A stretch of DNA of 64,000 nt, taken from contig NZ_JACNME010000005.1 of NCBI RefSeq assembly GCF_014270065.1, positions 186,001-250,000 on the forward strand, read 5' to 3'. The translations under genes and the position numbers were made by a program. Shown piece by piece: positions 2 through 55,207 of this stretch. Source of the stretch: Quadrisphaera sp. RL12-1S. Lineage in GTDB: Bacteria; Actinomycetota; Actinomycetes; Actinomycetales; Quadrisphaeraceae. Under the pieces are notes generated by a model. It saw only the letters and a program-made list of their open reading frames with translations. It was not told the DNA's origin and did no database searches. The first letter of the stretch is position 1. Each line of letters begins with the position of its first letter.

Positions 2-481
2 GGCCTCGCCGCCGACGCCGGCTACCGGGGCACGTTCGGGCACGAGGCCGAGTCCGACCTCGACGAGCTGCGGCTCACCTTCCGCCGCAAGGCGCACACG
101 GCGGCCGCCGAGCGGGCGCTCACCGCCCTGCTGCGGGCCCGCCCCGAGCTGGGCGAGCACGACGTGCACGCCGTGCGGCTGGGTGACCTGCTGCCCGAGG
201 ACGCGACGCAGGCCCTGCTGCGCCGACGCTCGGCCCTGGGGCTGTCCGTCGACGACGACGCACCCGTCGCCGTCGACGACCACGGCGCGCCCGTGGCGCC
301 GTCGGTGGTGGGGATGTGGCTGCGCAAGGCCCGCTCGACGCGCATCAGCATCGACGGGAACGCGCACTTCTGCCGCGGCCTGCTGGCCACGCGCTACCCG
401 GGGGCCGAGCTCGACCAGGGCCCCCGCGACGAGGGCACCGCGCCGGTCCCGGTGCAGCTGCTCACCCGCCGCCCCGCCTGA
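2..481 (+). CDS. Hypothetical protein, 5' truncated by window edge
   Basis: The last 159 codons of an open frame that enters from the left edge; the true start lies outside the window. The frame has strong third-position GC and ends in TGA at 479-481, 45 bp before the next gene. The protein is charged, with no membrane segment or signal visible. I recognise no motif; a single Cys lies in a H-F-C-R-G-L stretch about 35 residues from the end. No function is proposed. Confidence 0.7.
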   Translation, partial: GLAADAGYRGTFGHEAESDLDELRLTFRRKAHTAAAERALTALLRARPELGEHDVHAVRLGDLLPEDATQALLRRRSALGLSVDDDAPVAVDDHGAPVAPSVVGMWLRKARSTRISIDGNAHFCRGLLATRYPGAELDQGPRDEGTAPVPVQLLTRRPA

Positions 482-2099: not shown

Positions 2100-3000
2100 G
2101 GACCACGACCCTACGCACCGCCCGTCGCCGCGCCTGCCCGAGCACCACCCCGGCGACGACGAGGAGCAGCCCGGTCCACTGCCAGGTGCTGAGGTGCTCC
2201 CCGGCCAGCGCCGTGCCCAGGGCCACGCCGGCCACCGGGTTGAGCAGGCCGACGACGGCGACGGCGCTCGCGTCCAGGCGCGCCAGCCCGGCGAACCAGG
2301 CCGTGAACGCGAGCGCGGTGGCCACGAGCGAGACGAAGGCGAGGGCGAGCACGGCTGCACCGTCGAGGGTGGGAGGTGGTCCCGCCACCGCTGCCGCCAC
2401 CGGTGCGAGCAGCAGCCCGCTGAGGGTGAGCTGCCAGGCGGTCATCGTCAGGGCGGACGGGACGGGCTCACCGGCGGCGGTGGCCCGGCGGGCCCAGCGC
2501 TGGGACAGCACGGTGCCGACGGCGAAGACGACCACGCCCGCTGCCGCGGCGCCCACGCCCAGCGGGTCGAGCCCGGAGGTGGCCGCGCCGACCAGCAGGA
2601 CGACGCCGAGCAGCCCCACCAGCGCGGCTGCGACGGACGCCAGGCGGGGCCGCTGGGCGAGGAGGGGCCACGACAGCGCCAAGACCACGAGCGGGCTCAG
2701 GCCGGTGGCCGTGGCGGCCACGGAGGAGGGCAGCAGCTGGGCGCTCGCGTAGACCAGGGAGAAGAAGGCGCCGTTGACGAGGGTGCCGAGCACGGCTGCG
2801 CGCCACCACCACGGACCGCGCAGGAACCGGCCCCGCTGGTGCAGCGGCAGCACTAGCAGCACCAGGCCGGCGGGCAGGGCGCGGAGCACGCCGCCCCACA
2901 GCGGGTCCGGCGGCAGGGCTTGGCCCGTCACCCAGTACGTGGCGCCCCAGGAGAGCGGGGCCACGGCCGTCAGAGCGACCCAGCGCCAGTTGCCTTCCAT
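2083..3000 (-). CDS. EamA/DMT-family transporter
   Basis: A 305-residue protein with ten predicted membrane helices in two EamA repeats (about 10-140 and 150-290). The start W-V-A-L-T-A-V-A-P-L-S-W-G-A-T-Y is typical of the drug/metabolite transporter superfamily, whose members export amino acids, metabolites or drugs. It starts 39 bp from a divergent MarR regulator, the usual arrangement for a regulator-controlled exporter, and its 3' end overlaps the LLM oxidoreductase. The ATG lies inside the palindrome TTCCATGGAA, a possible operator. Substrate not predictable. Confidence 0.85.
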   Translation of the reverse strand: MEGNWRWVALTAVAPLSWGATYWVTGQALPPDPLWGGVLRALPAGLVLLVLPLHQRGRFLRGPWWWRAAVLGTLVNGAFFSLVYASAQLLPSSVAATATGLSPLVVLALSWPLLAQRPRLASVAAALVGLLGVVLLVGAATSGLDPLGVGAAAAGVVVFAVGTVLSQRWARRATAAGEPVPSALTMTAWQLTLSGLLLAPVAAAVAGPPPTLDGAAVLALAFVSLVATALAFTAWFAGLARLDASAVAVVGLLNPVAGVALGTALAGEHLSTWQWTGLLLVVAGVVLGQARRRAVRRVVVREPAT

Positions 3001-3035
3001 GGAAGACACAATGCCTTGCCGGGAAGATATGTTCC
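2995..3035. promoter_or_regulatory. Divergent eamA/marR control region with TTCC/GGAA palindromes
   Basis: Two palindromic elements lie between the divergent genes: TTCCATGGAA (2995-3004, perfect, covering the eamA start codon) and GGAAGATATGTTCC (3022-3035, 12 of 14 symmetric). The second overlaps TATGTT (3028-3033), a good -10 placed 6 nt before the marR GTG. Binding by the neighbouring MarR protein is an inference from position and shared half-sites. Confidence 0.45.
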
Positions 3036-3039
3036 AGGG

Positions 3040-3552
3040 GTGAGCGACCACGACCACGTGGCGCGGCTGCAGGAGCAGTGGCGCGCCGAGAGGCCGGACC
3101 TGGACGTCACCCCCCTCGGCGTGATCGGCCGGCTCCACCGGCTGGCCGCCGCCCTGACCCGCGAGCTCGAGGCCGTCTACGCCCAGCACGGGCTGTCCGA
3201 GGGCGACTTCGACGTCCTGGCCGCGCTGCGCCGCTCCGGTGCCGACCTGACCGCCGGCGAGCTGGCCGCCGCCACCATGGTCACCACCGGCGGGACGACC
3301 AAGCGCCTCGACCGGCTGGAAGGAGCCGGGCTCGTCACCCGCCGCACCAGCGACACCGACGGCCGCGGCCGCGTGGTCGCGCTGACCGCCGAGGGGCACC
3401 GCGTCATCGACGCCGCCTTCAGCGACCACGTGGCCAACGAGCACCGGCTGGTCGGGCAGATCCCCGACGCCGACGCGGCGGCGCTGGAGCGCATCCTCAG
3501 GGACTGGCTCGCCCAGCACGAGGCGCCCGCGGATGTCGCCCGACCCCGTTGA
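3040..3552 (+). CDS. MarR-family transcriptional regulator
   Basis: A 170-residue winged-helix protein. The N-terminal dimer helix (about 20-45) is followed by the HTH (L-T-A-G-E-L-A-A-A-T-M-V-T-T-G-G-T-T-K-R-L, about 68-88) and the wing R-R-T-S-D-T-D-G-R-G-R-V-V-A-L-T, the classic MarR D-x-R-G/R signature. The GTG at 3040 is chosen because TATGTT (3028-3033) ends 6 nt before it (leaderless) and upstream sequence belongs to the divergent eamA gene. It probably represses itself and eamA. Its 3' end carries the -35 of the next promoter. Confidence 0.85.
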   Translation: MSDHDHVARLQEQWRAERPDLDVTPLGVIGRLHRLAAALTRELEAVYAQHGLSEGDFDVLAALRRSGADLTAGELAAATMVTTGGTTKRLDRLEGAGLVTRRTSDTDGRGRVVALTAEGHRVIDAAFSDHVANEHRLVGQIPDADAAALERILRDWLAQHEAPADVARPR

Positions 3553-3577
3553 CGCCCCCGCGGCCCGCACCTAGCGT
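3549..3577 (+). promoter_or_regulatory. Strong SigA-type promoter of the leader peptide/monooxygenase unit
   Basis: TTGACG (3549-3554), a 17-bp spacer, then TAGCGT (3572-3577). The predicted +1 falls on or next to the ATG at 3585, so the mRNA would begin with the leader-peptide start codon. The -35 overlaps the marR stop codon. Confidence 0.75.
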
Positions 3578-3584
3578 CCGCCGC

Positions 3585-3686
3585 ATGGCCCCCCGTCACG
3601 CGCAGGTGCACCCCGCCTGCCTCGCCGTGACGCGGAAGATGCCCCTGTACGCCGAGGACACCACCCGCGGCGACCTGCGCCCCTGA
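3585..3686 (+). CDS. Putative regulatory leader peptide (33 aa)
   Basis: A 33-codon reading frame beginning at the predicted transcription start, with no ribosome binding site, as expected for a leaderless short ORF. The peptide has an R-H-x-x-V-H-P-A-C-x-A-V-T-R core with one Cys (TGC, codon 12). Short leaderless leader peptides with Cys near an R-H motif are known upstream of sulfur-assimilation genes in actinobacteria, and the genes downstream are of the sulfur-scavenging monooxygenase type. Its stop region CCTGAGC (3682-3688) is complementary to GCTCAGG (3736-3742), which overlaps the next gene's ribosome binding site. A regulatory role is inferred. Confidence 0.6.
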   Translation: MAPRHAQVHPACLAVTRKMPLYAEDTTRGDLRP

Positions 3687-3751
3687 GCACGGCCGCGCGC
3701 CCTGCGCACCCACCCCGGCCCGGTGACCACCCCCAGCTCAGGAGCACAGCC

Positions 3752-5146
3752 ATGCCCAGCACCGAGGAGAAGCAGGTCAAGCTCGGCCTCTTCGAGACCC
3801 CCGTCCTCAACGTCGGCGGGATGACGACGTGGACCCACCCCGACAACCAGACCCACCGCTACGCCGACCTGTCGTACTGGGTGGAGACCGCCGAGCGCCT
3901 GCAGGACGCCACCTTCGACTTCTGCTTCCTCGCTGACAGCTACGGCCACGGGGAGATCGGCGGTGCCCGGCCCGACGTCAACGCCCGCGAGGCGATGGAG
4001 CTCCCCCGGCTCGACCCGATGCTGCTCGTGCCCGCCATGGCGCACGCCGCGCAGCAGCTGGGGTTCGTGGTGACGGCCTCGACGGTGTTCGAGCCGCCGT
4101 TCGCCAACGCCCGCCGCTTCTCCACCCTCGACCACCTCACCCGGGGCCGGGTCGGGTGGAACGTGGTGACGTCGAGCTTCGCGGAGAGCGCCTCGGCCAA
4201 CTTCGGCCGGCCGATGGTCCCCCACGACGAGCGCTACGCCATGGCCGAGGACCACCTGCTCACCACCTACGCCGTCCTCGAGGGCTCCTGGGAGGACGAC
4301 GCGGTGCTGGCGGACAAGGCGGGCCGCACCTACGCCGACCCCGCCAAGGTCCACCGCGTCACCCGCACCGGCCCGTACTTCTCCGTGGACGGGTACAGCA
4401 ACACCGCGGCCTCTCCCCAGCGCACACCGGTGCTCTTCCAGGCGGGCACGTCGACGGCGGGTCTCGGCGTCGGCGCACGGCACGCGGAGTGCGTCTTCCT
4501 CCAGGGCTCCACCAAGGCCCGGCTGTCCGAGCACGTGGCGACGCTGGACCGGCTCGCCGTCGAGGCCGGACGGGCGCCCGGGTCGGTGAGGACGATGGTC
4601 GGGCTGTCCGTCGTCGTCGCCCCCACCCGCGAGGAGGCCGAGCGCCGGTACGCCGAGTACCTGGCGCTGAACACCCGCGAGAGCGCCATCGCCAGCTACG
4701 CGCTGTTCACCGGCATCGACCTCGGCGCCTACGACCCCGACGCGCCGTTCGCGGGGATCCGCACCGAGATGGGCCAGAGCCAGGTCGACAGGCACCTGCG
4801 GCAGGCCGGTGGCGCTCCCGGACCTACGGTGGGCGACGTGATCGAAGCGCACCGCACGCGCGGCTCCCGGGGGATGGTGGCCGTCGGCTCCCCCGACGAC
4901 GTCGTCGGGGAGGTCCTCGACCTGGTCGACTCCACCGGCGTGGACGGGTTCCTCCTGGAGCCGTTCGTGCAGCCCGGCTCGGTGGTCGACGTCGCCGAGC
5001 ACGTCGTGCCGCGGCTGCGCGCCGCCGGCCGGTTCCGCACCGAGTACACCGAGGAGACGCTGCGGGAGCGGATGTTCGGCGCCGGCCACCGGCACCTGCC
5101 CGCCGACCACCCCGGCGCCGCGGCGCGCACCTGGGCGACGGCGTGA
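3752..5146 (+). CDS. NtaA/SnaA/DszA-family FMN-dependent monooxygenase
   Basis: A 464-residue luciferase-like monooxygenase of the NtaA/SnaA/SoxA(DszA) group, which uses FMNH2 from a separate reductase to oxidise organosulfur or aminopolycarboxylate substrates. Family marks: F-E-T-P near the start, the W-V-E-T-A-E-R-L block, F-V-V-T-A-S-T-V-F-E-P-P-F-x-x-A-R-R-F-S-T-L-D-H (about 108-130), and G-R-V-G-W-N-V-V-T-S (about 133-142). AGGAG at 3740-3744, 7 nt before the ATG, sets the start. The stop overlaps the flavin reductase GTG (GTGA), so the pair is a two-component system. A sulfur substrate is inferred from the leader peptide and family. Confidence 0.85.
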   Translation: MPSTEEKQVKLGLFETPVLNVGGMTTWTHPDNQTHRYADLSYWVETAERLQDATFDFCFLADSYGHGEIGGARPDVNAREAMELPRLDPMLLVPAMAHAAQQLGFVVTASTVFEPPFANARRFSTLDHLTRGRVGWNVVTSSFAESASANFGRPMVPHDERYAMAEDHLLTTYAVLEGSWEDDAVLADKAGRTYADPAKVHRVTRTGPYFSVDGYSNTAASPQRTPVLFQAGTSTAGLGVGARHAECVFLQGSTKARLSEHVATLDRLAVEAGRAPGSVRTMVGLSVVVAPTREEAERRYAEYLALNTRESAIASYALFTGIDLGAYDPDAPFAGIRTEMGQSQVDRHLRQAGGAPGPTVGDVIEAHRTRGSRGMVAVGSPDDVVGEVLDLVDSTGVDGFLLEPFVQPGSVVDVAEHVVPRLRAAGRFRTEYTEETLRERMFGAGHRHLPADHPGAAARTWATA

Positions 5147-5679
5147 GCGCCGGCTCGCCGGCCGGCCTGGTCGCCGTCGACGACGCACCCGACGCAGCCA
5201 CGGCGCACCGCGCGCTGCGCGACGCGTTCGGCCGCTTCCCCAGCGGCGTGGTCTCGGCGTGCGCCCGGGTGGACGGCTCCCCCGTCGGCATGGCCATGAG
5301 CTCGTTCACCTCCGTGTCGCTCGACCCGCCCCTGGTGCTGGTCTGCGTCGACCGGGCGTCGTCCACCTGGCCGACGCTCGTCGGCGCTGAGCGGCTGGGG
5401 ATCTCGGTGCTCGGCGAGGCCCACGACAGGACGGCGCGGCAGCTCGCCTCCCGCACCGCCGACAGGTTCGCCGGGCTCTCGCTGGTCGACGGCGACGGGG
5501 GCGCGCTCTTCGTCGAGGGCGCCGCCGCGTGGCTGGAGTGCTCCGTGGAGCAGGAGCTGCCCGGGGGCGACCACCTGGTGGTGCTGCTGCGCGTGCACGC
5601 CCACCGGGTGCTCGAGCCCGGACCCCTGGTGTTCCACGCGAGCACCTTCTCCACGGTGGCACCTACCCTGGTGGGGTGA
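5143..5679 (+). CDS. Flavin reductase (FMN reductase component)
   Basis: A 178-residue protein of the flavin reductase-like, split-barrel family (HpaC/DszD type). It carries F-x-R/x-F-P-S-G-V-V at the N-terminus, [20 protein letters not shown] (about 48-67), F-A-G-L-S near 108, and the terminal H-A-S-T-F-S block. It would reduce FMN with NAD(P)H and pass FMNH2 to the monooxygenase encoded just upstream. The GTG at 5143 overlaps that gene's TGA by 4 nt, which fixes the start and indicates equal expression. Confidence 0.9.
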
Positions 5680-5686
5680 TGAGCGC

Positions 5687-6715
5687 ATGACGCTGGCACC
5701 TGAGGGACGTCGGATGCTGCGGGTGGAGGCCCGCAACGCCGCCGTGCCCATCGAGCGCAAGCCCGAGTGGATCCGCACCACCGCCAAGACCGGCCCGGAG
5801 CACCAGAAGCTGACCGCCCTCGTCAAGAGGGAGGGCCTGCACACCGTCTGCCAGGAAGCCGGCTGCCCCAACATCTTCGAGTGCTGGGAGGACAGGGAAG
5901 CCACCTTCCTCATCGGCGGTGACCAGTGCACCCGCCGCTGCGACTTCTGCCAGATCGACACCGGCAAGCCCGCCGCCTTCGACGCCGACGAACCCCGCCG
6001 CGTCGCGGAGTCGGTGGCCACCATGGGCCTGCGCTACGCCACCATCACCGGCGTCGCCCGCGACGACCTGGACGACGGCGGAGCGTGGCTGTACGCCGAG
6101 ACCGTCCGACGCATCCACGCCAACCCCACCGTCGACGGTGCTGGGACGGGGGTGGAGCTGCTCATCCCCGACTTCAACCGCGACCCCTCCCAGCTGGCGG
6201 AGGTCTTCTCCTCCCGCCCGCAGGTGCTGGCCCACAACGTCGAGACCGTCCCGCGGGTGTTCAAGCGGATCCGCCCCGCCTTCACCTACGAACGCTCCCT
6301 GGGGGTCATCACCGACGCCCGCGAGGCGGGCCTGGTGACCAAGTCCAACCTCATCCTGGGGATGGGGGAGACCTACGAGGAGGTCGTGCAGGCGCTGCGC
6401 GACCTGCACGCGGCGGGCTGCGACATCATCACCATCACCCAGTACCTGCGGCCCTCCCCGCGCCACCACCCCGTGGAGCGGTGGGTCAAGCCGGAGGAGT
6501 TCGTGGCGCTGCAGACCGAGGCCAGCGACATCGGGTTCACCGGGGTGCTGGCCGGGCCGCTGGTGCGCTCCTCCTACCGCGCGGGACGGCTGTACGCGGC
6601 GGCGCTCGCCGCCCGCGGTGGGCAGCTGCCCGAGCACCTGGCCCACCTGGGCGCCGCCTCAGCGGCCGGCCCGGCCCGCCAGGAGGCCACCGCCGTCCTC
6701 GCCCGCCACAGCTGA
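5687..6715 (+). CDS. lipA: Lipoyl synthase
   Basis: A 342-residue radical-SAM enzyme that inserts two sulfur atoms into protein-bound octanoyl groups to make lipoyl cofactor. Both clusters are visible: C55-x4-C60-x5-C66 (auxiliary 4Fe-4S) and C81-x3-C85-x2-C88 (radical SAM). The start [12 protein letters not shown] matches the family's usual beginning, which supports ATG 5687. It begins 7 bp after the flavin reductase stop. No lipB is in the window. DUF4191 downstream is the common actinobacterial neighbour. Confidence 0.97.
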
Positions 6716-6793
6716 CGGCCCGCTCCCGCTGACCGCCCGGACGGGCGTCGCCTGGTCGCCGCACGGCGTCAGGGCGTCGCCCGTCAGCGCGCC

Positions 6794-6799
6794 TAGAAT
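6794..6799 (+). promoter_or_regulatory. -10 element (TAGAAT) of leaderless DUF4191 mRNA
   Basis: TAGAAT lies exactly 7 nt before the ATG at 6807, so transcription should start at the start codon. No convincing -35 is seen. Confidence 0.55.
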
Positions 6800-6806
6800 C
6801 TTCCCC

Positions 6807-7559
6807 ATGGCCCGCCGCTCCGACCCCGCGCCCTCGTCCGCCCCGGCGGAGGGGCGCCGTCGAGGGCTGTTCCGCCGCAAGCCCCGCACCGGTCCCGGGC
6901 GCATCGCGCAGATGCGCGAGGTCTACCGGATGACCGCCCGCGTCGACCCGTCCATCACGTGGTGGATGCTCGGCGCGCTGCTGGTCCCGCTCGCGGTCTT
7001 CGTGGTCATCGGCGTCCTCACCGGCCACCCCATCTACTTCAGCATCATCGGCGTGCTGTTCGCCGTGCTGGCAGCGCTGTTCGTGCTCGCCCGCCGCGCC
7101 GAGTCGGCCGCGTACAAGAGCCTCGAGGGCCAGCCCGGTGCCGCCGGCGCGGCGCTGCGCACGCTGCGCCGCGGCTGGCTGGTCGAGGAGGAGCCGGTCG
7201 CCATCGATCCGCGCACCCGTGACGTCGTCTTCCGCGTGGTCGGGCGCCCCGGCGTGGTCCTCGTCTCCGACGGTCCCGCCCCCCGCGTGGCGCGCCTGCT
7301 GGAGGACGAGCGCCGCAAGACCGCGCGCGTGCTGCGCGACGTGCCGCTGCACACCATCCAGTGCGGCCGCGGCGAGGGCCAGACCCCGCTGCCCAAGCTG
7401 CCCCGCGCGGTGCAGCGGCTGGAGCGCAAGCTCACCAAGCAGGAGGTCGCCGAGGTCACCAAGCGCCTCAAGGCGCTCGGCGGTGTGCGGCCGCCCATCC
7501 CCAAGGGCATCGACCCGTTCCGCGCCCGCCCCGACCGGCGTGCGGTGAGGGGCCGCTGA
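6807..7559 (+). CDS. DUF4191 membrane protein
   Basis: A 250-residue protein with a basic, cytoplasmic N-terminus (R-R-R-G-L-F-R-R-K), two membrane helices (about 52-72 and 76-95) and a large soluble C-terminal domain ending in a Lys/Arg-rich tail with P-K-G-I-D-P-F-R. This is the DUF4191 layout, found next to lipA across actinobacteria; function unknown. The ATG is supported by the -10 hexamer 7 nt upstream and by 91 bp of separation from lipA. The HAD gene downstream follows almost without a gap. Confidence 0.88.
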   Translation: MARRSDPAPSSAPAEGRRRGLFRRKPRTGPGRIAQMREVYRMTARVDPSITWWMLGALLVPLAVFVVIGVLTGHPIYFSIIGVLFAVLAALFVLARRAESAAYKSLEGQPGAAGAALRTLRRGWLVEEEPVAIDPRTRDVVFRVVGRPGVVLVSDGPAPRVARLLEDERRKTARVLRDVPLHTIQCGRGEGQTPLPKLPRAVQRLERKLTKQEVAEVTKRLKALGGVRPPIPKGIDPFRARPDRRAVRGR

Positions 7560-7585
7560 GCAGGGACGCGCGCTCCCGCCGGCGC

Positions 7586-8191
7586 GTGGAGGCCCTCGTC
7601 GTCGACGTCGACGGGGTCCTGCGCCGCTGGGACCCCGACGAGTGGGCGGCCGCGGAGGCCCGCGCGGGCGTCCCCCGGGGCGCCCTGTACCGCGCGGCGT
7701 TCGACAAGCCGGCCCTGCGCTCCGTCGTGACCGGCCGGACCACCGACGCGCAGTGGCGCGAGGGCACGGCCGAGCGGCTCTCGCAGGCGCACGACGTGCC
7801 GCTGGAGTCCGCGCGCGACGTCGTGGCCAGCTGGTCGGCCTCCGCCGGCCAGGTGGACCGGGGGGTCCTGCAGCTGGTCCGGGAGCAGCGGGCACGGCGG
7901 CGCGTGGTGCTGCTGAGCAACGCCACCGACAGGCTCGACGCGGACCTCGCCCGGCTCGGGGTGGAGGACGAGGTGGACGCCGTCTACGCGACGTACCGGA
8001 TCGGCGTCGCCAAGCCGGACCGGGCCGTGTACGAGCACGTCGCCGCCGACCTCGGGCTGCCCACGTCGGCGTGCGCCTTCGTGGACGACTCCCCGCGCCA
8101 CGTGGCGGGCGCCGAGGCCGCCGGCATGGTGGCCCACCTCTTCACCGGAGCGGCCGACCTGCGCGTCTTCCTGGACACCCTCGACGCCTGA
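7586..8191 (+). CDS. HAD-superfamily hydrolase
   Basis: A 201-residue haloacid-dehalogenase-like phosphatase. Motif I is V-V-D-V-D-G-V-L-R-R-W-D (about 5-16; nucleophile D and second D), motif II L-L-S-N-A-T (about 108-113), the motif III Lys is in G-V-A-K-P-D (about 139), and motif IV is F-V-D-D-S (about 164-168). It resembles the epoxide-hydrolase/YihX type; substrate unknown. The GTG at 7586 is the only standard start before motif I that avoids a long overlap with DUF4191; a few residues upstream remain possible. It is probably co-transcribed with DUF4191. Confidence 0.82.
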   Translation: MEALVVDVDGVLRRWDPDEWAAAEARAGVPRGALYRAAFDKPALRSVVTGRTTDAQWREGTAERLSQAHDVPLESARDVVASWSASAGQVDRGVLQLVREQRARRRVVLLSNATDRLDADLARLGVEDEVDAVYATYRIGVAKPDRAVYEHVAADLGLPTSACAFVDDSPRHVAGAEAAGMVAHLFTGAADLRVFLDTLDA

Positions 8192-8210
8192 CGATGCCCT
8201 GCAGGCATCG
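8192..8210 (+). terminator. Short hairpin after the HAD gene
   Basis: CGATGCC (8192-8198) pairs perfectly with GGCATCG (8204-8210) around a 5-nt loop, directly after the stop codon. It is a weak, T-tract-free terminator candidate. Confidence 0.4.
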
Positions 8211-8328
8211 AGAAGGTGCCTGGAAAGCATCGCCGATGTGCCGGCGAGGCTCTGGACAGGCGCTGCTGCGACCCCGACAGTTGCCCGGGCGCTCCACCGT
8301 CGGGGCGCTGCGCGGGTGAGGAGCAGCG

Positions 8329-9699
8329 ATGACAGCCACGGGCACGTCGGTCACGGGGTCCACGTCCACCTCGGCGCGGGGCGGCCTGGCCCGCAGCCTG
8401 GGCCTGGTCGCGCTGGTGGGCCTGGGACTGGGCTACATGACGCCCACGGTGGTGTTCGACACCTTCGGGATCGTCTCCGACACCACCGGCGGCGCGGTGC
8501 CGTCCGCCTACCTCCTGGCGCTGGTGGTCATGGCGCTGACCGCCACCAGCTACGGCAAGCTCGTCGCGGTCTTCCCCTCGGCCGGGTCGGCGTACACCTA
8601 CGTGCGCGAGGTGATGCACCCGAACGTCGGGTTCATGGTCGGCTGGTCGTCCCTGCTCGACTACCTGCTGCTGCCCATGGTCAACGCCCTGATCGTCAAG
8701 CTGTACGTCGAGCAGGTCTTCCCGTCGGTGCCCAGCTGGCTCGTGGTGGTGGTCTACACGGTCTGCACCACCACGCTCGTGGCGGTCACCATGCGCGGCA
8801 CCTCCAAGGTCAACCTGGTGCTGCTGGCCGCGGCCGTCACGGTGATGGCGGTGTTCGTGGTCATCGCGAGCTACCAGCTGCTGCAGGGCGAGGGCGCCGG
8901 CACGCTGGTGAGCGCGCGGGCCTTCGCCGGCCCCGAGACCACGCTGCCGCTCGTCCTCACCGGCGCGACGGTCGTCTGCTTCTCCTTCATCGGCTTCGAC
9001 GCGGTGACCATGTACGCCGAGGAGGCCAAGACCCCCCGGACACTGCCGCGGGCGATCATGCTCACGGTGCTGCTGGGCGGGGCGATCTTCCTGGTGGCGG
9101 CGTACGTCACGCAGCTGCGCTTCCCCGACAACGGCCCCTTCGGCGAGTTCACCGACGACCCGCTGCCGCAGATCGGCCACCTCGTGGGCGGTCCCCTGTT
9201 CCAGGCGCTGCTCGTGGGCGCGGCGTTCGTGGCGACCGTGGCCTCGGGGCTGGCCTCCCACGCCAGCGTCGCCCGCATGCTGCTGGTGATGGGCCGCAAC
9301 GGCGCCCTGCCCGGGCGCGGGCTGCGCTGGGTCAGCCCGCGCACGCACACCCCGGTCATCAACATCATCATCGTCGGCGCCGTGTGCCTGCTCGCCGTGG
9401 ACTTCTCCCTCGAGCTCATCTCGGCCTGCATCAACTTCGGCGCGCTGGTGGCGTTCACGTTCGTCAACGCCTCGGTGATCGCCCACTTCGCCGTCCGCCG
9501 CCGCGAGGTGCGCACCCCGCGCGAGGTGCTGCGCAACGTGGTGGTCCCCGCCGTGGCGACGCTGCTGACGGCCGCGCTGTGGACGCAGCTGCACAGCGAC
9601 GCGCTCGTCGCCGGGGGCGTCTGGGCCGCGATCGGCCTGGTGTACCTGCTGGTCTACACCCGCGGGCTGCGCCGCCCGATGGCCTCTCTGGAGGAGTAG
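8329..9699 (+). CDS. APC-family permease, putrescine importer (PuuP)-like
   Basis: A 456-residue amino acid-polyamine-organocation transporter with 12 predicted helices. The N-terminal stretch M-T-P-T-V-V-F-D-T-F-G-I-V-S followed by F-P-S-A-G-S-A-Y-T-Y and G-F-M-V-G-W-S-S-L-L-D-Y-L-L-L-P-M-V-N closely resembles E. coli PuuP, the proton-coupled putrescine importer, so polyamine uptake is the best guess. GAGGAG upstream of the ATG fits a ribosome binding site. It stands alone between a HAD gene and a convergent Nudix gene, so substrate rests on similarity only. Confidence 0.85.
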   Translation: MTATGTSVTGSTSTSARGGLARSLGLVALVGLGLGYMTPTVVFDTFGIVSDTTGGAVPSAYLLALVVMALTATSYGKLVAVFPSAGSAYTYVREVMHPNVGFMVGWSSLLDYLLLPMVNALIVKLYVEQVFPSVPSWLVVVVYTVCTTTLVAVTMRGTSKVNLVLLAAAVTVMAVFVVIASYQLLQGEGAGTLVSARAFAGPETTLPLVLTGATVVCFSFIGFDAVTMYAEEAKTPRTLPRAIMLTVLLGGAIFLVAAYVTQLRFPDNGPFGEFTDDPLPQIGHLVGGPLFQALLVGAAFVATVASGLASHASVARMLLVMGRNGALPGRGLRWVSPRTHTPVINIIIVGAVCLLAVDFSLELISACINFGALVAFTFVNASVIAHFAVRRREVRTPREVLRNVVVPAVATLLTAALWTQLHSDALVAGGVWAAIGLVYLLVYTRGLRRPMASLEE

Positions 9700-9724: not shown

Positions 9725-10273
9725 TCAGCGGAGCCCGTGCGCCGCGAGCAGCGTGAGCGCGGCGAGGCTCACCGCGTCCACCAGCCGCCCGTCGGCCACC
9801 ATGGCGTCGACCTCGTCGCGGGAGGACCAGCGGGTGACCAGGTCGGCCTCGGTCTCCTCCAGCTGCTGCGGCCCCGGGGTGAGCCCCTCGGCCAGCCAGG
9901 CGTGACCGCGCTGGGAGGTGAGGCCGGCCGCCAGGTCGAATCCGCCCAGCGGGGTGAGGCGCTCGGCGCGCAGGCCCGTCTCCTCGGCCAGCTCCGCGCG
10001 GGCGAGCTCTTCCAGGGACCCCGAGGCGCCGTGCGACCAGCTGCCCTGCGGGAACTCCCAGCGACGGGCCCCCACCGGGTAGCGGTGCTGCTGGACGAGC
10101 CACCACCCGTCGCCGGGTCCGTCCGCCGGGGTGGTGCGGGGCAGCACCACGCAGAAGTCGGGCTTGTCCACCACCCCGTAGACGGCGGTGGAGCCGTCCT
10201 CGCGGCGGACCAGGTCCTCCCGGACGCTGATCCAGGGGTTGGCGTAGACGACCCGGCTCTCCAGCTGCTCCAC
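9725..10273 (-). CDS. Nudix hydrolase (ADP-ribose pyrophosphatase-like)
   Basis: A 182-residue Nudix-fold protein. The strand V-V-Y-A-N-P-W-I-S-V-R-E-D and the Q-Q-H-R-Y-P-V-G stretch before the box are typical of ADP-ribose/NDP-sugar pyrophosphatases. The Nudix box keeps A-E-L-A-E-E-T-G-L (canonical R-E-x-x-E-E-x-G), so the usual Arg is Ala, but the metal-binding glutamates remain. The start is the GTG at 10273-10271, because TAGCGT (10286-10281) lies exactly 7 nt upstream; longer frames run into the RDD gene. Confidence 0.82.
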   Translation of the reverse strand: MEQLESRVVYANPWISVREDLVRREDGSTAVYGVVDKPDFCVVLPRTTPADGPGDGWWLVQQHRYPVGARRWEFPQGSWSHGASGSLEELARAELAEETGLRAERLTPLGGFDLAAGLTSQRGHAWLAEGLTPGPQQLEETEADLVTRWSSRDEVDAMVADGRLVDAVSLAALTLLAAHGLR

Positions 10274-50488: not shown

Positions 50489-50818
50489 TCAGGTGAGGAA
50501 GTCGTCCACCTGCAGGTCGTGCGCGACGAAGGGCCGCAGGGTCGGCGCCAGCTCCTGCAGCAGGTCCCGCACGGTGGCGGCCGCGTCCGGGACGAAGGTC
50601 AGCAGCGCCGCCGTCTCGGTGGTGTCGCCGCGCGGTGGCCCGGCCCACACCGCGTCCGCCAGGGACGCGGCGATCCGCTCGATGCAGTCGTCGAGGACGA
50701 GCCCCGGCTCCCCGGGGTGCTGCTCGAGCGCCGTGAGCTGGCCCTCCACGGCTGCGGCCCAGCGCTCGGGCTCGTCGGGCGCCAGGAACAGCAGGACGTC
50801 GTACGACACGCCCTGCAT
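50489..50818 (-). CDS. Hypothetical protein (109 aa)
   Basis: A small acidic protein with no membrane segment and no recognised domain: M-Q-G-V-S-Y-D-V-L-L-F-L at the start, acidic tail H-D-L-Q-V-D-D-F. Codon use fits the genome and it lies 16 bp upstream of the HAD gene on the same strand, so it may share its transcript. ATG 50818 has a weak AGGAAG just before it. Confidence 0.65.
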   Translation of the reverse strand: MQGVSYDVLLFLAPDEPERWAAAVEGQLTALEQHPGEPGLVLDDCIERIAASLADAVWAGPPRGDTTETAALLTFVPDAAATVRDLLQELAPTLRPFVAHDLQVDDFLT

Positions 50819-51008: not shown

Positions 51009-52370
51009 TCAGCGCGGCCGCAGCGCCGGGTAGGTCGCCGGCAGGCGGTCGCGGCCGGCGCCGAAGATCCGCGAGCGCAGCGTGCCGGTCTTCACGGCCG
51101 GGTCGTACAGGCCCCGCGCGGCCAGGGCCGGCACGGCCAGCTCGGCGAAGTCCTCCAGCGTCCCGGGGCTGAGCAGCGGGTTGAGGATGTAGCCGTCGAG
51201 GCTGGCCGCCGCGGCGTGCTCGCCCATGGCGTCGGCCACCTGGTCGGGGGTGCCGACGAAGAAGAGGTCGCCGCCGCGCGCCACCGAGGAGAAGCGCTGG
51301 CGCACCTCGCCGGCGGTCAGCGGCGGGGAGCCCGGTCCGGCCTTGAGCACGTAGCTGGACAGGCCGTTGGTGGTGGTGCTGAGCGGCTCGTCGTCGGCGT
51401 ACCGGGAGATGTCGATGCCGGTGTCGCCGGAGTAGGAGACCAGCTGGGCGCGCAGGCGGTAGGTGCTCTGCAGGTCGTCGTACTTGGCCTGCGCCTCAGC
51501 CTCGGTCCGACCGACCACCACACGAGCCAGGGCGAGGGCGCGCAGGTCGTCGGCGTCCCGGCCGAGCGCAGCGGCGCGGGCCCGGACGTCGTCGAGACCA
51601 GAGCGGATCTTCAACGGGTCGGCCATGGGCAGCAGCAGCACCTCGCCGTGCCGGGCGCCGAACTCCCTGCCGCGCGGCGACCAGCCGGCCTGGAACAGGG
51701 TGGGCGTGCGCTGCGGCGACGGTGAGGTCAGCGCCGGGCCGTGGACGCGGAAGTGCTCGCCGTCGTGGTGCAGCGCCCGCACGGAGCCCGGCCGGGCCCA
51801 GGTGGCGCCGGCCTTGTCGGCCACCACGGCGTCGTCGTCCCAGCTCTCCTCCCACAGCTGGTGGGTGACGTGGAGGAACTCGTCGGCGCGGCCGTACCGG
51901 TCGGCGTGGGCCAGCTGCTGGTCCAGGCCGAAGCTGCGGGCGGCGCTCTCGAGGTAGCTGGTGACGACGTTCCAGCCGGTGCGGCCACCGGTGAGGTGGT
52001 CGAGCGTGGCGAAGCGCCGGGCCAGGGAGAACGGGTGCTCGTAGGTGGTGGAGGCCGTCACCACGAAGGCGAGGTCGCGCGCCACCTCGGCGAGCGCGGG
52101 CACGTAGGCGAAGGGGTCGTTGGCGGGGGCCTCGACGGCCTCCCCCACGGCGGCGTCGAGGGAGCCCTCGTACACGTCGTAGAGGCCGAGCACGTCGGCG
52201 AGGAAGAGGGCGTGCAGCCCCGCCTGCTGCGACGTGGTGGCCACGTGGCGCCAGCGGTCGAGGCTGTTGACGCCCACGCGGTCGTCGGCGGGGTGGGTCC
52301 ACAGGCCGGGGGCGCCGCCGCAGCCGACGCTGGCCTGCTCGTAGAGGGCGACGACGAGGGGCTTGCTCAT
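51009..52370 (-). CDS. NtaA/SnaA/DszA-family FMN monooxygenase (SAM-IV operon)
   Basis: A 453-residue luciferase-like monooxygenase of the same group as the gene at 3752: F-V-V-T-A-S-T-T-Y-E-H-P-F-S-L-A-R-R-F-A-T-L-D-H-L-T-G-G-R-T-G-W-N is split across about 97-130, then P-T-L-F-Q-A-G-W-S near 220. It needs an FMN reductase, none adjacent, so it may share the one at 5143. The ATG overlaps the permease stop (ATGA). Because the operon has a SAM-IV riboswitch, a role in sulfur or methionine-related compound use is likely. Confidence 0.87.
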   Translation of the reverse strand: MSKPLVVALYEQASVGCGGAPGLWTHPADDRVGVNSLDRWRHVATTSQQAGLHALFLADVLGLYDVYEGSLDAAVGEAVEAPANDPFAYVPALAEVARDLAFVVTASTTYEHPFSLARRFATLDHLTGGRTGWNVVTSYLESAARSFGLDQQLAHADRYGRADEFLHVTHQLWEESWDDDAVVADKAGATWARPGSVRALHHDGEHFRVHGPALTSPSPQRTPTLFQAGWSPRGREFGARHGEVLLLPMADPLKIRSGLDDVRARAAALGRDADDLRALALARVVVGRTEAEAQAKYDDLQSTYRLRAQLVSYSGDTGIDISRYADDEPLSTTTNGLSSYVLKAGPGSPPLTAGEVRQRFSSVARGGDLFFVGTPDQVADAMGEHAAAASLDGYILNPLLSPGTLEDFAELAVPALAARGLYDPAVKTGTLRSRIFGAGRDRLPATYPALRPR

Positions 52371-53818
52371 GCGGGGACCTTCTCTGCGCTGGACGAGGAC
52401 GCACCGCGGCGCAGGCGGTGCACGAGGTAGCAGGCGGCGGTGAAGACGACGCCGATGATCGTCGCGGTCCGCTGCGCCCCGTCGAACAGGGACGCGACGA
52501 CCGAGACGGCGCACGCCACCAGCACGAACAGCGGCGCGAACGGGTACCAGCGCGAGTGGTACGGCAGGGAGGCCGGGTCGACCCCGGCCGCCCGTAGACG
52601 CCGGCGCTGCACGAGCTGCGCGAGCGCGATGACCGCCCACACCGCCACCACGGCGAAGCCCGCGACCGACACGAGGACCACGTACACGGTGCCCGCCGCG
52701 ACGTACGAGCTCACCAGCGACACCAGGCCACCGGCGAGGCTGACGACCACCGCCAGCGCGGGGATGCCCCGCCGGTCGGTGCGGGCGAAGGCCTTCGGCA
52801 GGTCACCGGCGAGGGCCAGCGAGCGCAGCAGCCGGGAGCAGGCGTACAGCCCGGACACCCCGGCGGACATGAGCGCGGTGATGATGACGACGGCGATGAC
52901 GTCAGCGGCGTACGGGATGCCGGAGGCGGCGAAGACGGTGACGAACGGGCTGCTCTCGACGGACTCGTCGGCGCTGCCCAGCTGCGCGTACGGCACGAGC
53001 GCGGCCATGACGACGATCGCGCCGATGAAGAAGACGACCAGCCTGACCATCGTGGTGCGGACGGCCTTGGGGACCACGCGGGCCGGGTCGTCGGTCTCGC
53101 CCGCGGCGATGGCGATGAGCTCGGTGCCGGAGAAGGCGTAGAACACCGCGAGCACCGCCACCAGCACGCCGCCGATGCCGGCGGGCAGCAGCCCGTCGGG
53201 CGTGACGAAGTTCGACAGCAGCGGTGCGGGCGCCCCGGAGGCGCTGATCCCGACGATCGCGAGCGCCCCCACCACGATGAAGACGACGACGGCGGTCACC
53301 TTGACGCCCGCGAGCAGGCTCTCGGTGTCCCCGTACAGGCGCACCGGCGCGAGGTTGACCGCCAGCAGCAGCGCCGCGAACACCGCGCACCACACCCAGA
53401 CCGGCACCCCGGGGAACCAGCGCTGCATGAGCAGGCCCGACGCGGTCAGCTCCGAGCCGATGGCGGCCACCCAGCACAGCCAGTACAGCCACGCCGTCGT
53501 GAAGCCCGTGCCGGGCCCGAGGATGCGGTGGGCGTAGACGTGGAAGCCACCGGACTCCGGCATCTGCACGGCCAGCTCTCCGAGGCACGTCATGAGCTGC
53601 CACGCCACGAGGGCGCCGATGACGTACGCGATGACGGCGCCCAGTGGACCCGCCTGGTAGATCGTGTAGCCCGACGAGATGAACAGCCCGGACCCGATGA
53701 CGCCGCCGAGGGCGATCATCACCAGGTGCCGGGTCTTCAGGCCGCGGTGCAGGTCCGCTGCCTCCGGCACGGTGCTCGTGCTGGCAGAGGTGCTCGCTCG
53801 GGCAGGCGCGTGCGCCAT
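52367..53818 (-). CDS. mmuP: APC-family permease, S-methylmethionine permease (MmuP)-like
   Basis: A 483-residue amino acid transporter with 12 helices. The stretch L-K-T-R-H-L-V-M-I-A-L-G-G-V-I-G-S-G-L-F and later F-S-G-T-E-L-I-A-I-A-A-G-E-T and S-P-F-V-x-V-F-x-x-x-G-I-P-Y-A-A-D closely match E. coli MmuP, the S-methylmethionine importer. This fits the SAM-IV riboswitch directly upstream: SAM-replete cells would stop importing a methionine source. GAGGAG before the ATG. Other amino acids cannot be excluded. Confidence 0.88.
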   Translation of the reverse strand: MAHAPARASTSASTSTVPEAADLHRGLKTRHLVMIALGGVIGSGLFISSGYTIYQAGPLGAVIAYVIGALVAWQLMTCLGELAVQMPESGGFHVYAHRILGPGTGFTTAWLYWLCWVAAIGSELTASGLLMQRWFPGVPVWVWCAVFAALLLAVNLAPVRLYGDTESLLAGVKVTAVVVFIVVGALAIVGISASGAPAPLLSNFVTPDGLLPAGIGGVLVAVLAVFYAFSGTELIAIAAGETDDPARVVPKAVRTTMVRLVVFFIGAIVVMAALVPYAQLGSADESVESSPFVTVFAASGIPYAADVIAVVIITALMSAGVSGLYACSRLLRSLALAGDLPKAFARTDRRGIPALAVVVSLAGGLVSLVSSYVAAGTVYVVLVSVAGFAVVAVWAVIALAQLVQRRRLRAAGVDPASLPYHSRWYPFAPLFVLVACAVSVVASLFDGAQRTATIIGVVFTAACYLVHRLRRGASSSSAEKVPA

Positions 53819-53832
53819 GACGTCTCCTCGCA

Positions 53833-53941
53833 GGTCCGCTCTTGCCGCGCGCTCTGCGCGGCCGGGTCTTCACCTGGAGCACCCCACGCGGACGAGGGTT
53901 GCTGGGCAGCCAGCCAGGGCCTGAGGCTGCCGCTCATGACC
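53833..53941 (-). ncRNA. SAM-IV riboswitch
   Basis: Read on the minus strand it opens GGTCATGAG (53941) and shows all SAM-IV parts. P1: GGTC with GACC (GGTGAAGACC, 53874-53865). P2: GGCAGCC with GGCTGCC. P3: AGCAACCC (53903-53896) with GGGGTGCT (53885-53878). P4: GCCGCGC-AGAGC-GCGCGGC. Pseudoknot: P3-loop GTCCGC (53893-53888) with tail GCGGAC (53839-53834). The tail ends 3 nt before the ribosome binding site, which suggests translational control by SAM of the permease/monooxygenase operon. Confidence 0.92.
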
Positions 53942-53949
53942 GGGACCGG

Positions 53950-53979
53950 ACTCTAGGAGGAGACTGACTGACCCGTCAA
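53950..53979 (-). promoter_or_regulatory. SigA-type promoter of the SAM-IV operon
   Basis: On the minus strand TTGACG (53979-53974), an 18-bp spacer, and TAGAGT (53955-53950). The predicted start falls at the first bases of the riboswitch. Confidence 0.78.
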
Positions 53980-54194
53980 AGACGGATGGGCGTGTCCGGT
54001 CACCGCCTTGCGCCGAGGGCGAGGTGCGCGGCCATCACCGGTCTCGTTCACCGCGCCCTGGGCGAGACGACCACCGAACAGGGCGTCTGAGACTCGGTCA
54101 CTCGACGTCACGGCGCTCGTAGCGACATGGGGCAGGGTGTTCGGTCAGTGGTCGTGGGTGAGACGCCTTGGCGCGAGATCGTGCGCAAGCCTGA

Positions 54195-54227
54195 AGCTGA
54201 CATGGGCCAGGTCGGCCCGTGTCAGCT
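54195..54227 (-). terminator. Terminator of the GNAT gene at 54227
   Basis: 14-bp arms 54195-54208 and 54214-54227 (one G-U pair) with a 5-nt loop, touching the stop codon of the minus-strand gene. The rest of 54001-54194 shows nothing recognisable. Confidence 0.7.
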
Positions 54228-55207
54228 CACGGGGCTTGCACCAGCAGCAACGGTCGGAGCTGCGCAAGCGGCAGTCCGTCGAGCGCAGACTGCAGGTGGG
54301 GGTCGTCCACGTGACCGTCCAGCTCGAGCAGGCCCCCGCCCCGACCGGCGACCTCAGCAATGGTCCGAGCCAAGGCACCGCGCAGCACATCCACCCCAGT
54401 CAGCTGAGGCGGGACGCCGGCCGCCGCGACATCACGCACCACCGTCTCCGCGACGACCTCCCACCCGACCTCAGCTGGGAAGACCAGCACCATCGCGATG
54501 AGGCGACCGTTCCACCAGACTCCTGAGCTGCACCCCCGGTCCGCTTCCGCCGCTGTCGCGGCGGCGACCGATTCCAGCGCGCGCCGAGGTGCCCCGGTCG
54601 GGACCGGCGACCACGAAGCGTGCACCCACAGGTACTGCTCGGCGAAGGCCTGCGCCAGCTGCTCGGCGTCCAGCCTGTCCAGTGACTCGGTCTGCAATCC
54701 AGGGAAACCGCTGTGCGCCGCTGCTGCCCTGTGCCGCTCGGCCCAGGCGAGCACGCGATGATCATCAACGTCGACAACCTGCCCTGGGCTGCGCTGGCGA
54801 ACGCCACCTCCGGCCGCGGCGAGGAATCCCATGGCCGCAGCGTTCGACGGGCGCAGCTTGCTCATGAGCGGCAGTGTCTCGGGCCGCACCTCGCGTACGC
54901 CGTCCAGCAGCCGTCGCCCAACCCCCTGGCGGCGCCAGGCGCGGTGGACGTCGACTGCGCAGGAGTACTGGCCCGGGTGGACCCAGTTGCGCGCCACGGT
55001 CGCCGCCCCCACGACCCTCCCGTCCCGATCCCCCATGACGGCGACCAGCGTGCGGCGCCATCGCTCGCCGTCGCGCGGTGGCCCGTGCAGCGCGTGGCAC
55101 TGAGCAACCCACAGTGGGTCGGCGTCGAGGTCAAGCAGGCCGGCGACGACGGGGGCGTCAGCGGGTTCCCAAGCGCGCAACCACAACGCTCCGTCCTCGG
55201 CTCCCAC
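54227..55207 (-). CDS. GNAT-family acetyltransferase, probable two-domain
   Basis: A 326-residue protein. The N-terminal half is a GNAT domain (V-D-V-H-R-A-W-R-R-Q-G-V-G-R-R-L-L as the acetyl-CoA loop, about 88-104); the second half (about 165-326) has I-A-M-V-L-V-F and L-L-E-L-D-G-H-V-D strands, like a degenerate second GNAT. GGGAGG placed 8 nt before the GTG at 55207 decides the start; an open frame upstream is ignored. Substrate unknown. Confidence 0.75.
   Translation of the reverse strand: MGAEDGALWLRAWEPADAPVVAGLLDLDADPLWVAQCHALHGPPRDGERWRRTLVAVMGDRDGRVVGAATVARNWVHPGQYSCAVDVHRAWRRQGVGRRLLDGVREVRPETLPLMSKLRPSNAAAMGFLAAAGGGVRQRSPGQVVDVDDHRVLAWAERHRAAAAHSGFPGLQTESLDRLDAEQLAQAFAEQYLWVHASWSPVPTGAPRRALESVAAATAAEADRGCSSGVWWNGRLIAMVLVFPAEVGWEVVAETVVRDVAAAGVPPQLTGVDVLRGALARTIAEVAGRGGGLLELDGHVDDPHLQSALDGLPLAQLRPLLLVQAP

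Follow-up and report, generated by a model that had tools for sequence, protein, structure and literature searches.

A predicted SAM-IV riboswitch ahead of an MmuP-like permease and an NtaA/DmoA-family monooxygenase in Quadrisphaera sp. RL12-1S

Introduction

In a 64,000-nucleotide stretch of the Quadrisphaera sp. RL12-1S genome (NCBI RefSeq assembly GCF_014270065.1, contig NZ_JACNME010000005.1, positions 186,001 to 250,000; hereafter the window), an RNA leader of the S-adenosylmethionine (SAM)-IV class precedes two minus-strand genes, one encoding an amino acid permease and the other a flavin mononucleotide (FMN)-dependent monooxygenase. An original prediction made from the letters of the window read this as a SAM-IV riboswitch controlling an S-methylmethionine-type importer and a sulfur-type monooxygenase, a gene set that it called unusual for this switch. 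The locus raises the question of what such a switch would do in front of this pair and how the pair came to lie behind it. Our answer is that the riboswitch is probably a SAM-dependent off-switch of a two-gene operon for scavenging methionine and sulfur.

Results

The leader is a complete SAM-IV aptamer

An Rfam scan matched positions 53833-53941 of the minus strand to SAM-IV (RF00634) over the complete model (1-116) with 93.1 bits (E 1.4e-15) against a gathering score of 38, bearing out the original prediction of an aptamer with all its stems in the 53820-53960 region. No other Rfam family reached its gathering score in the window. The P1, P2a/P2b, P3 and P5 helices were present. The window copy was aligned with 24 other SAM-IV copies (25 in all), and 98.1% of the cells of the named structure, both pseudoknots included, were paired, with the nested helices pairing partly by construction because the aligned copies came from the Rfam model. 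Covariance models, as we understand them, do not score pseudoknots as pairs. Pseudoknot 1 (PK-1), which joins the P2 loop to the segment 3' of P3 (columns 24-28 with 67-71), was 100% paired in the 25 copies. Pseudoknot 2 (PK-2), the P3-loop/tail pseudoknot that had been called, joins columns 51-55 with 115-119 and was 88.5% paired, and each pseudoknot forms five pairs in the window copy. Across the alignment there were 10 two-sided pair changes compared to a mean of 3.8 in 500 shuffles, and shifting the partners by one column reduced pairing to below 48%.

The P3 column pair 39-66 is A-U in the window copy and not G-C, which is the compensatory A-T noticed earlier, and a second compensatory change was found in PK-1, where U26-A69 stands in place of the commoner C-G. 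Both A39-U66 and U26-A69 occur in other SAM-IV copies too. A structural study places positions 2-4, 7-8, 63-65 and 77 within 5 Å of SAM (PMC6890682), and at all of these positions, which share the numbering of our alignment columns, the window copy equals the consensus. Judged from its sequence, the riboswitch is real, belongs to a known class, is itself ordinary and would be expected to bind SAM.

Promoter and expression platform

The predicted promoter, TTGACG-18-TAGAGT, was found once, at 53979-53950, compared to 0.0 +/- 0.1 sites in shuffled sequence. The looser motif TTGNNN-16..19-TANNNT was found within 60 nt upstream of 43 of 119 SAM-IV leaders compared to 17 of 2380 mononucleotide-shuffled 60-mers, and all 43 of these promoter-like elements end 7-11 nt before the aptamer (TANNNT at 7-10 nt was counted 89 times, as motif occurrences and not as leaders). 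The 119 leaders are those in the loci that we fetched, less three duplicate rows (two from L080 and one from L196), and do not cover all SAM-IV copies, for which at least about 150 matches were listed; the set is enriched in that part of the loci were chosen for holding monooxygenases. The sister species (G001) has a like promoter element, and its non-coding similarity to the window starts at the promoter and is poor above it. That such an element recurs at this constant distance before many SAM-IV leaders of relatives supports the promoter.

The aptamer end and the permease ATG are separated by 14 nt containing GAGGAG, and no terminator-like site was found in 53800-54230. With no room for a terminator and none found, control is most likely translational. 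The monooxygenase ATG overlaps the permease stop codon (ATGA), suggesting that expression of the two genes is probably coupled. A candidate pairing between CCUCG in P3 and CGAGG of the ribosome-binding region was rejected, since P3 would have to open before CCUCG became available, which is opposite to what a SAM off-switch requires.

The permease is most like an S-methylmethionine permease

The best NCBIfam model for the permease was the S-methylmethionine permease PRK11387 at 501 bits, with the next best model at 335, in agreement with the MmuP-like call, yet the score lies under the cut-off of 716. The genome also encodes a homocysteine S-methyltransferase (MmuM) equivalog, unlinked to the pair (285.9 bits, cut-off 215). 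Outside the genus nine permease homologues were at least 50% identical, and an MmuM equivalog adjoins 3 of the 7 whose loci were examined for it (L210-L216, 1.5 kb flanks). S-methylmethionine is favored as the cargo because MmuM is present in the genome and beside these close homologues, and it is our best guess.

The monooxygenase forms its own clade

The monooxygenase gene (51009-52370) lies almost wholly outside the span of the original prediction (52367..53979). Its product was correctly placed in the NtaA family, as it passes the TIGR03860 family cut-off with 442.5 compared to 279.7 bits. The solved relatives were an alkane monooxygenase (3b9n, which we take to be LadA; 365 bits), dimethyl sulfide monooxygenase (6ak1, DmoA; 328), riboflavin lyase (5w48, presumably RcaE; 289), hexachlorobenzene dehalogenase (6lr1, HcbA1; 280) and DszA (5tlc; 231). 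A tree of 90 rows, which leaves out HcbA1, matches shorter than about 230 residues and translations below 330, grouped the monooxygenase at 100/100 with its orthologues from Micrococcaceae, Microbacteriaceae and a single Pseudomonas. The branch next to this clade held riboflavin lyase 5w48 and another window protein (3752-5146) with support of 94/85, which is not firm, on long branches; riboflavin lyase is therefore not firmly the nearest characterised relative. The monooxygenase fell outside the LadA clade, with 3b9n grouping with other rows (98/96). At the aligned positions where 3b9n and 6ak1 both have Cys14 and His17, which we take to be the catalytic residues of LadA, the monooxygenase has Ser14 and Cys17. 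A reading as a dimethyl sulfide monooxygenase was rejected, as the tree puts it in a separate 100/100 clade. Neighborhoods of the relatives suggest that this monooxygenase clade has substrates of at least two kinds.

The other window protein on that branch is a second NtaA/DmoA-family monooxygenase (3752-5146, plus strand) that shares 49% identity with riboflavin lyase 5w48 across 438 columns. A flavin reductase gene (PF01613, 5143-5679, plus strand) overlaps its end, suggesting that 3752-5679 likely encodes a two-component flavin monooxygenase, possibly a riboflavin lyase.

SAM-IV leaders precede methionine- and organosulfur-type genes

Six SAM-IV leaders were found in the genome, all above the cut-off. 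Besides the pair, they precede an ATP-binding cassette (ABC) operon of MetQ-, MetN- and permease-type genes; a second ABC operon with a MetN-type ATPase, a permease and an NlpA lipoprotein; MetY, an O-acetylhomoserine sulfhydrylase that passes its cut-off, with an alpha/beta hydrolase behind it that we call metX from where it lies; an SfnB-like oxidoreductase; and a 302-aa protein that matched no family, followed by two NtaA/DmoA-type monooxygenases, one MsnO8-type monooxygenase and an acetyltransferase. Curated cut-offs are not reached by the best hits for MetQ, MetN and SfnB, nor by one of the two NtaA/DmoA hits. SAM-IV is cited with O-acetylhomoserine sulfhydrylase in PMC3774663.

In the enriched set, an NtaA/DmoA-type monooxygenase was present in the called operon of 17 of the 119 leaders, in 13 genomes (one of them, L087, a weak match of 49.6 bits), and for loci fetched from the SAM-IV list the count was 5 of 92 leaders. 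Operons and labels come from genes that we called ourselves and from the best BLAST matches among seed proteins, not from annotations, and no gene was called for 7 of the 119. SAM-IV ahead of NtaA/DmoA-type enzymes therefore recurs, and the word unusual fits only this particular pair, which was seen behind SAM-IV in two species.

Several further gene sets were seen behind these leaders. At L079 (11678-16608) and L082 (310-5240), SAM-IV heads an operon whose genes, according to family scans on L079, include those for a cytosine/allantoin-type permease and an S-Me-THD-like protein; this suggests hydantoin-type sulfur compounds as scavenged substrates. A conserved protein of about 300 aa is the first gene after SAM-IV at L068 (8949-9857); the L068 copy, when scanned, had no Pfam or NCBIfam match. 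Its homologues are found at L076, L077, L085, L189 and L193, and monooxygenase genes follow it at L068, L077, L085, L189 and L193. The commonest unlabelled first-gene cluster comprised 22 proteins behind 22 leaders (e.g. L131, 401-514), and all four members scanned were class V aminotransferases. A class V aminotransferase behind a SAM-IV leader is described for Streptomyces clavuligerus in PMC8269248.

The pair occurs without the riboswitch in other genera

In 17 genomes (15 plus two further) we found a monooxygenase orthologue at 53-67% identity, and 12 of them, from Micrococcaceae and Leifsonia, also hold the permease. Counting this genome and the sister species, 14 genomes have the two genes no more than a few kb apart. 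The permease is directly upstream on the same strand at L228, L232 (where it reads in two frames), L233, L269 and L306. Two IclR regulators, a hydrolase and a small open reading frame (ORF) separate the genes at L229, L230, L231, L240, L271 and L304, and in Leifsonia (L234) the pair is divergent with the same extra genes past the permease. The set of homoserine dehydrogenase, PF04199 'cyclase' hydrolase and two IclR regulators was found at L229, L231, L240, L271, L304 and L234, and L230 has the IclR regulators and the PF04199 hydrolase without homoserine dehydrogenase. The homologues of the dehydrogenase and the hydrolase in our genome are distant (43% and 36%, respectively) and are not in this operon.

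No convincing SAM-IV was found at the pair in the 12 other genomes. Weak matches fell inside an IclR gene at L304 (16.5 bits) and inside the monooxygenase gene of the Pseudomonas locus L235 (21.2 bits), and no other Rfam element reached its gathering score before the relatives' pairs in the 11 of 15 orthologue loci scanned. SAM-IV is present elsewhere in 9 of the 10 pair genomes tested, with three to five copies each, none of them in the fetched loci; Leifsonia has none. Among the genomes examined only this genome and one sister species have SAM-IV at this pair. In 99 genomes searched, the sister species alone had a permease more than 57% identical outside our genome, and the four other species of the genus had no permease at the level searched and monooxygenases at most 46% identical.

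The orthologous leader of the sister species is 95% identical, with five substitutions in 109 nt, four at positions that are unpaired in the window copy and one, U30 to C, that keeps its pair. Third-position changes made up 111 of 158 differences in the permease gene and 78 of 118 in the monooxygenase gene. The next closest aptamers were a divergent G001 leader 97 nt away (85.5%) and the metQ leaders of the genus (84-85%). That SAM-IV stands at the pair only here and in the sister species, though pair genomes carry it elsewhere, suggests leader capture: the pair probably came under the switch recently, by copying of one of the SAM-IV leaders of its own genus. The simplest account that this suggests is a local leader copied before an acquired pair.

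In the sister species (L074) two SAM-IV leaders stand back to back at 9525-9633 (minus strand) and 9731-9840 (plus strand), 97 nt apart, the second preceding genes for a further monooxygenase, an SfnB-like protein and an ABC transporter judged peptide-type from its homology to L149; L142 has a similar divergent pair of leaders. Because the sister species has two, we searched near the window leader with filters off and found no second, divergent SAM-IV 5' of it; the best other score was 9.3 bits, for a match overlapping the aptamer on the opposite strand.

Variants of the PK-1 pair among leaders

The PK-1 pair was U26-A69 in 38 of the 119 leaders, C26-G69 in 77, mixed in one and unreadable in three; these are raw counts, uncorrected for relatedness, from a set enriched for monooxygenase loci. 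Neither metY nor metX occurs in the operon of any U26-A69 leader; metQ comes first behind 12 of them, and 14, including the permease leader, have an NtaA/DmoA-type monooxygenase. The C26-G69 leaders have metY or metX in 35 cases and an NtaA/DmoA-type monooxygenase in two. The C-G pair was also found in seven metN-first leaders and both close SfnB leaders, and the metN-type and SfnB leaders of this genome carry it. A clean split between biosynthesis and scavenging by PK-1 pair was considered and failed a recount.

Table 1. Features of the permease-monooxygenase locus, in window coordinates
Feature	Position	Strand	Evidence
SAM-IV promoter TTGACG-18-TAGAGT, -10 ending 8 nt before the aptamer	53950..53979	-	motif search against shuffles, and relatives
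SAM-IV aptamer (RF00634), complete	53833..53941	-	93.1 bits and pair counts
PK-1 5' strand CCUGG, partner CCAGG	53914..53918	-	alignment and allele survey
PK-1 3' strand CCAGG	53873..53877	-	alignment and allele survey
PK-2 5' strand UCCGC, in P3 loop	53888..53892	-	columns 51-55
PK-2 3' strand GCGGA, in tail, 5 nt before Shine-Dalgarno	53835..53839	-	columns 115-119
Shine-Dalgarno GAGGAG of permease, 5 nt before ATG	53824..53829	-	sequence; letters identical in sister species
MmuP-like amino acid permease (PF00324), 483 aa	52367..53818	-	PF00324 375.9 bits; PRK11387 501 bits
NtaA/DmoA-family FMN-dependent monooxygenase, 453 aa	51009..52370	-	PF00296; TIGR03860 442.5 bits
109-aa ORF, no Pfam/NCBIfam match, 190 nt downstream of the pair	50489..50818	-	74% identical in sister species

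The 109-aa ORF adjoins the pair in the sister species too, and its place in the transcript is uncertain.

Discussion

We propose that transcription would begin at or near the 5' end of the aptamer. With SAM plentiful the aptamer would close and its 3' tail would be locked in PK-2, five nucleotides from the Shine-Dalgarno sequence, so that ribosomes could not load and no permease would be made; given the start/stop overlap, the monooxygenase would not be made either. When SAM falls, the operon would be translated. The permease would then take up an amino acid derived from methionine. S-methylmethionine is the likeliest such cargo; the unlinked MmuM could convert it to methionine, and the monooxygenase would oxidise a related compound. 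The off-switch is supported by the intact aptamer, pseudoknots and SAM-contact positions, by sister-species leader changes that spare pairs, by coding changes that are mostly third-position, by the absence of a terminator, and by the other five leaders, whose downstream genes match methionine or organosulfur families, in several cases below cut-offs. SAM is the corepressor of MetJ. A precedent comes from Escherichia coli and Klebsiella, where the mmuP operators are strongly repressed by MetJ (PMC3228920).

Several observations weigh against this reading or parts of it. The permease is below the PRK11387 equivalog cut-off, as are the permeases of three orthologous pairs (602-616 bits); MmuM does not lie beside the operon or near any of the genome's six SAM-IV leaders. 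The DmoA (6ak1) clade does not include the monooxygenase. When RNA was folded with the aptamer constrained, Shine-Dalgarno accessibility did not clearly differ from that of the free fold, a modeled result that neither supports nor excludes sequestration. Other SAM-IV leaders may use attenuation, by analogy with S. clavuligerus, whose SAM-IV leader yields a premature transcript (PMC8269248). As for leader capture, an L141 aptamer from another family is 83.2% identical compared to 83.8% for our own metQ-type leader, and loss of the leader elsewhere rather than gain here is possible.

Three other readings share the riboswitch and differ in what the two genes do. In the original prediction they work together as a single pathway for cleaving a sulfonium or thioether compound, which we consider unlikely. 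S-methylmethionine would be split to dimethyl sulfide and homoserine or its lactone, the methylthio part oxidised to methanethiol by the monooxygenase, and the methanethiol assimilated by MetY. Such a route would suit the closeness of the two genes in 14 genomes, metY under SAM-IV in this genome and DmoA as the second-best solved relative, and a homoserine-yielding step would suit the dehydrogenase, PF04199 hydrolase and IclR set. However, this operon has no cleavage enzyme, the IclR-bearing clusters look substrate-induced and not SAM-controlled, and the best-matching solved protein is the alkane monooxygenase. The claim of oxidative breakdown of a sulfonium or thioether did not gain support, given an enzyme outside both the DmoA and LadA clades that has Ser and Cys in place of Cys14/His17 and whose relatives' neighborhoods diverge.

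It is rather unlikely that the monooxygenase instead acts on a nucleoside- or ribityl-linked compound, such as an S-adenosyl-type thioether or a flavin-like molecule, as a second salvage gene beside the permease. The grouping with riboflavin lyase points this way, but its 94/85 support is below the starred level and its branches are long. In four Microbacterium genomes (L236-L239, about 2700-8400) the orthologue follows an adenosylhomocysteinase-like and deaminase-like cluster and faces a nucleoside hydrolase cluster near an ABC transporter, with L236 the one locus given family scans. The arrangement could be a catabolic cluster for nucleoside thioethers; these orthologues are only 53-54% identical and lack the permease, which is of amino-acid type in our operon. 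We think it improbable that the switch usefully controls only import of a methionine precursor by the permease, with the monooxygenase as a passenger. MetJ-repressed import of S-methylmethionine in enterobacteria (PMC3228920) and the MmuM equivalog of this genome would fit, but the monooxygenase gene overlaps the permease stop codon and has changed mostly at third positions, and there are other SAM-IV leaders with monooxygenases under their control but not this permease.

A bolder reading takes in the PK-1 variants. The swap from C26-G69 to U26-A69 might mark a paralogous scavenging lineage of actinobacterial SAM-IV leaders that was copied before new organosulfur genes and here took up a pair forming an undescribed route for S-methylmethionine or a related methionine-derived sulfur compound. 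We regard this as doubtful, in part because C-G leaders precede some uptake and scavenging genes too, two of them in this genome.

A search of the open literature, with the original SAM-IV paper (RNA 2008) and subscription papers outside it, found nothing joining SAM-IV, monooxygenase and riboswitch. As far as that literature shows, the 2008 paper aside, the pair is a new target for SAM-IV, and its place behind the switch suggests an unexplored means of organic sulfur scavenging. SAM-IV leaders here precede transporters and several flavin monooxygenase families too, and SAM-IV marks a candidate SAM-controlled regulon for organosulfur scavenging. Related organisms that carry these two genes, some with the riboswitch and some lacking it, provide a natural experiment, and the monooxygenase clade comes with genetic clues to its substrate.

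Compared to known systems, the leader resembles SAM-IV (RF00634) in its full match, helices, PK-1, PK-2 and the ligand contacts of PMC6890682, and in its sulfur/methionine-type downstream gene. It differs from the model in two deleted positions of the P3-loop region, and from other leaders in the ATG only 14 nt past the aptamer, among the five shortest of the 112 leaders with a called gene. The monooxygenase resembles the solved TIGR03860 enzymes (3b9n, 6ak1, 5w48 and 5tlc) in passing the family model and aligning nearly full length, and differs in occupying its own strongly supported clade. The pairs of Pseudarthrobacter, Arthrobacter, Paeniglutamicibacter and Leifsonia have orthologous genes, directly adjacent on one strand in five cases, but no convincing SAM-IV, and six Arthrobacter-type loci and Leifsonia carry IclR regulators at the pair. 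The closest functional parallel is with the mmuPM operon of E. coli and Klebsiella, which likewise combines (PMC3228920) methionine-pathway repression with an S-methylmethionine-type permease gene in first place. There the repressor is a protein and here it would be an RNA switch, and the second gene here is a monooxygenase and not MmuM, which is encoded elsewhere in the genome.

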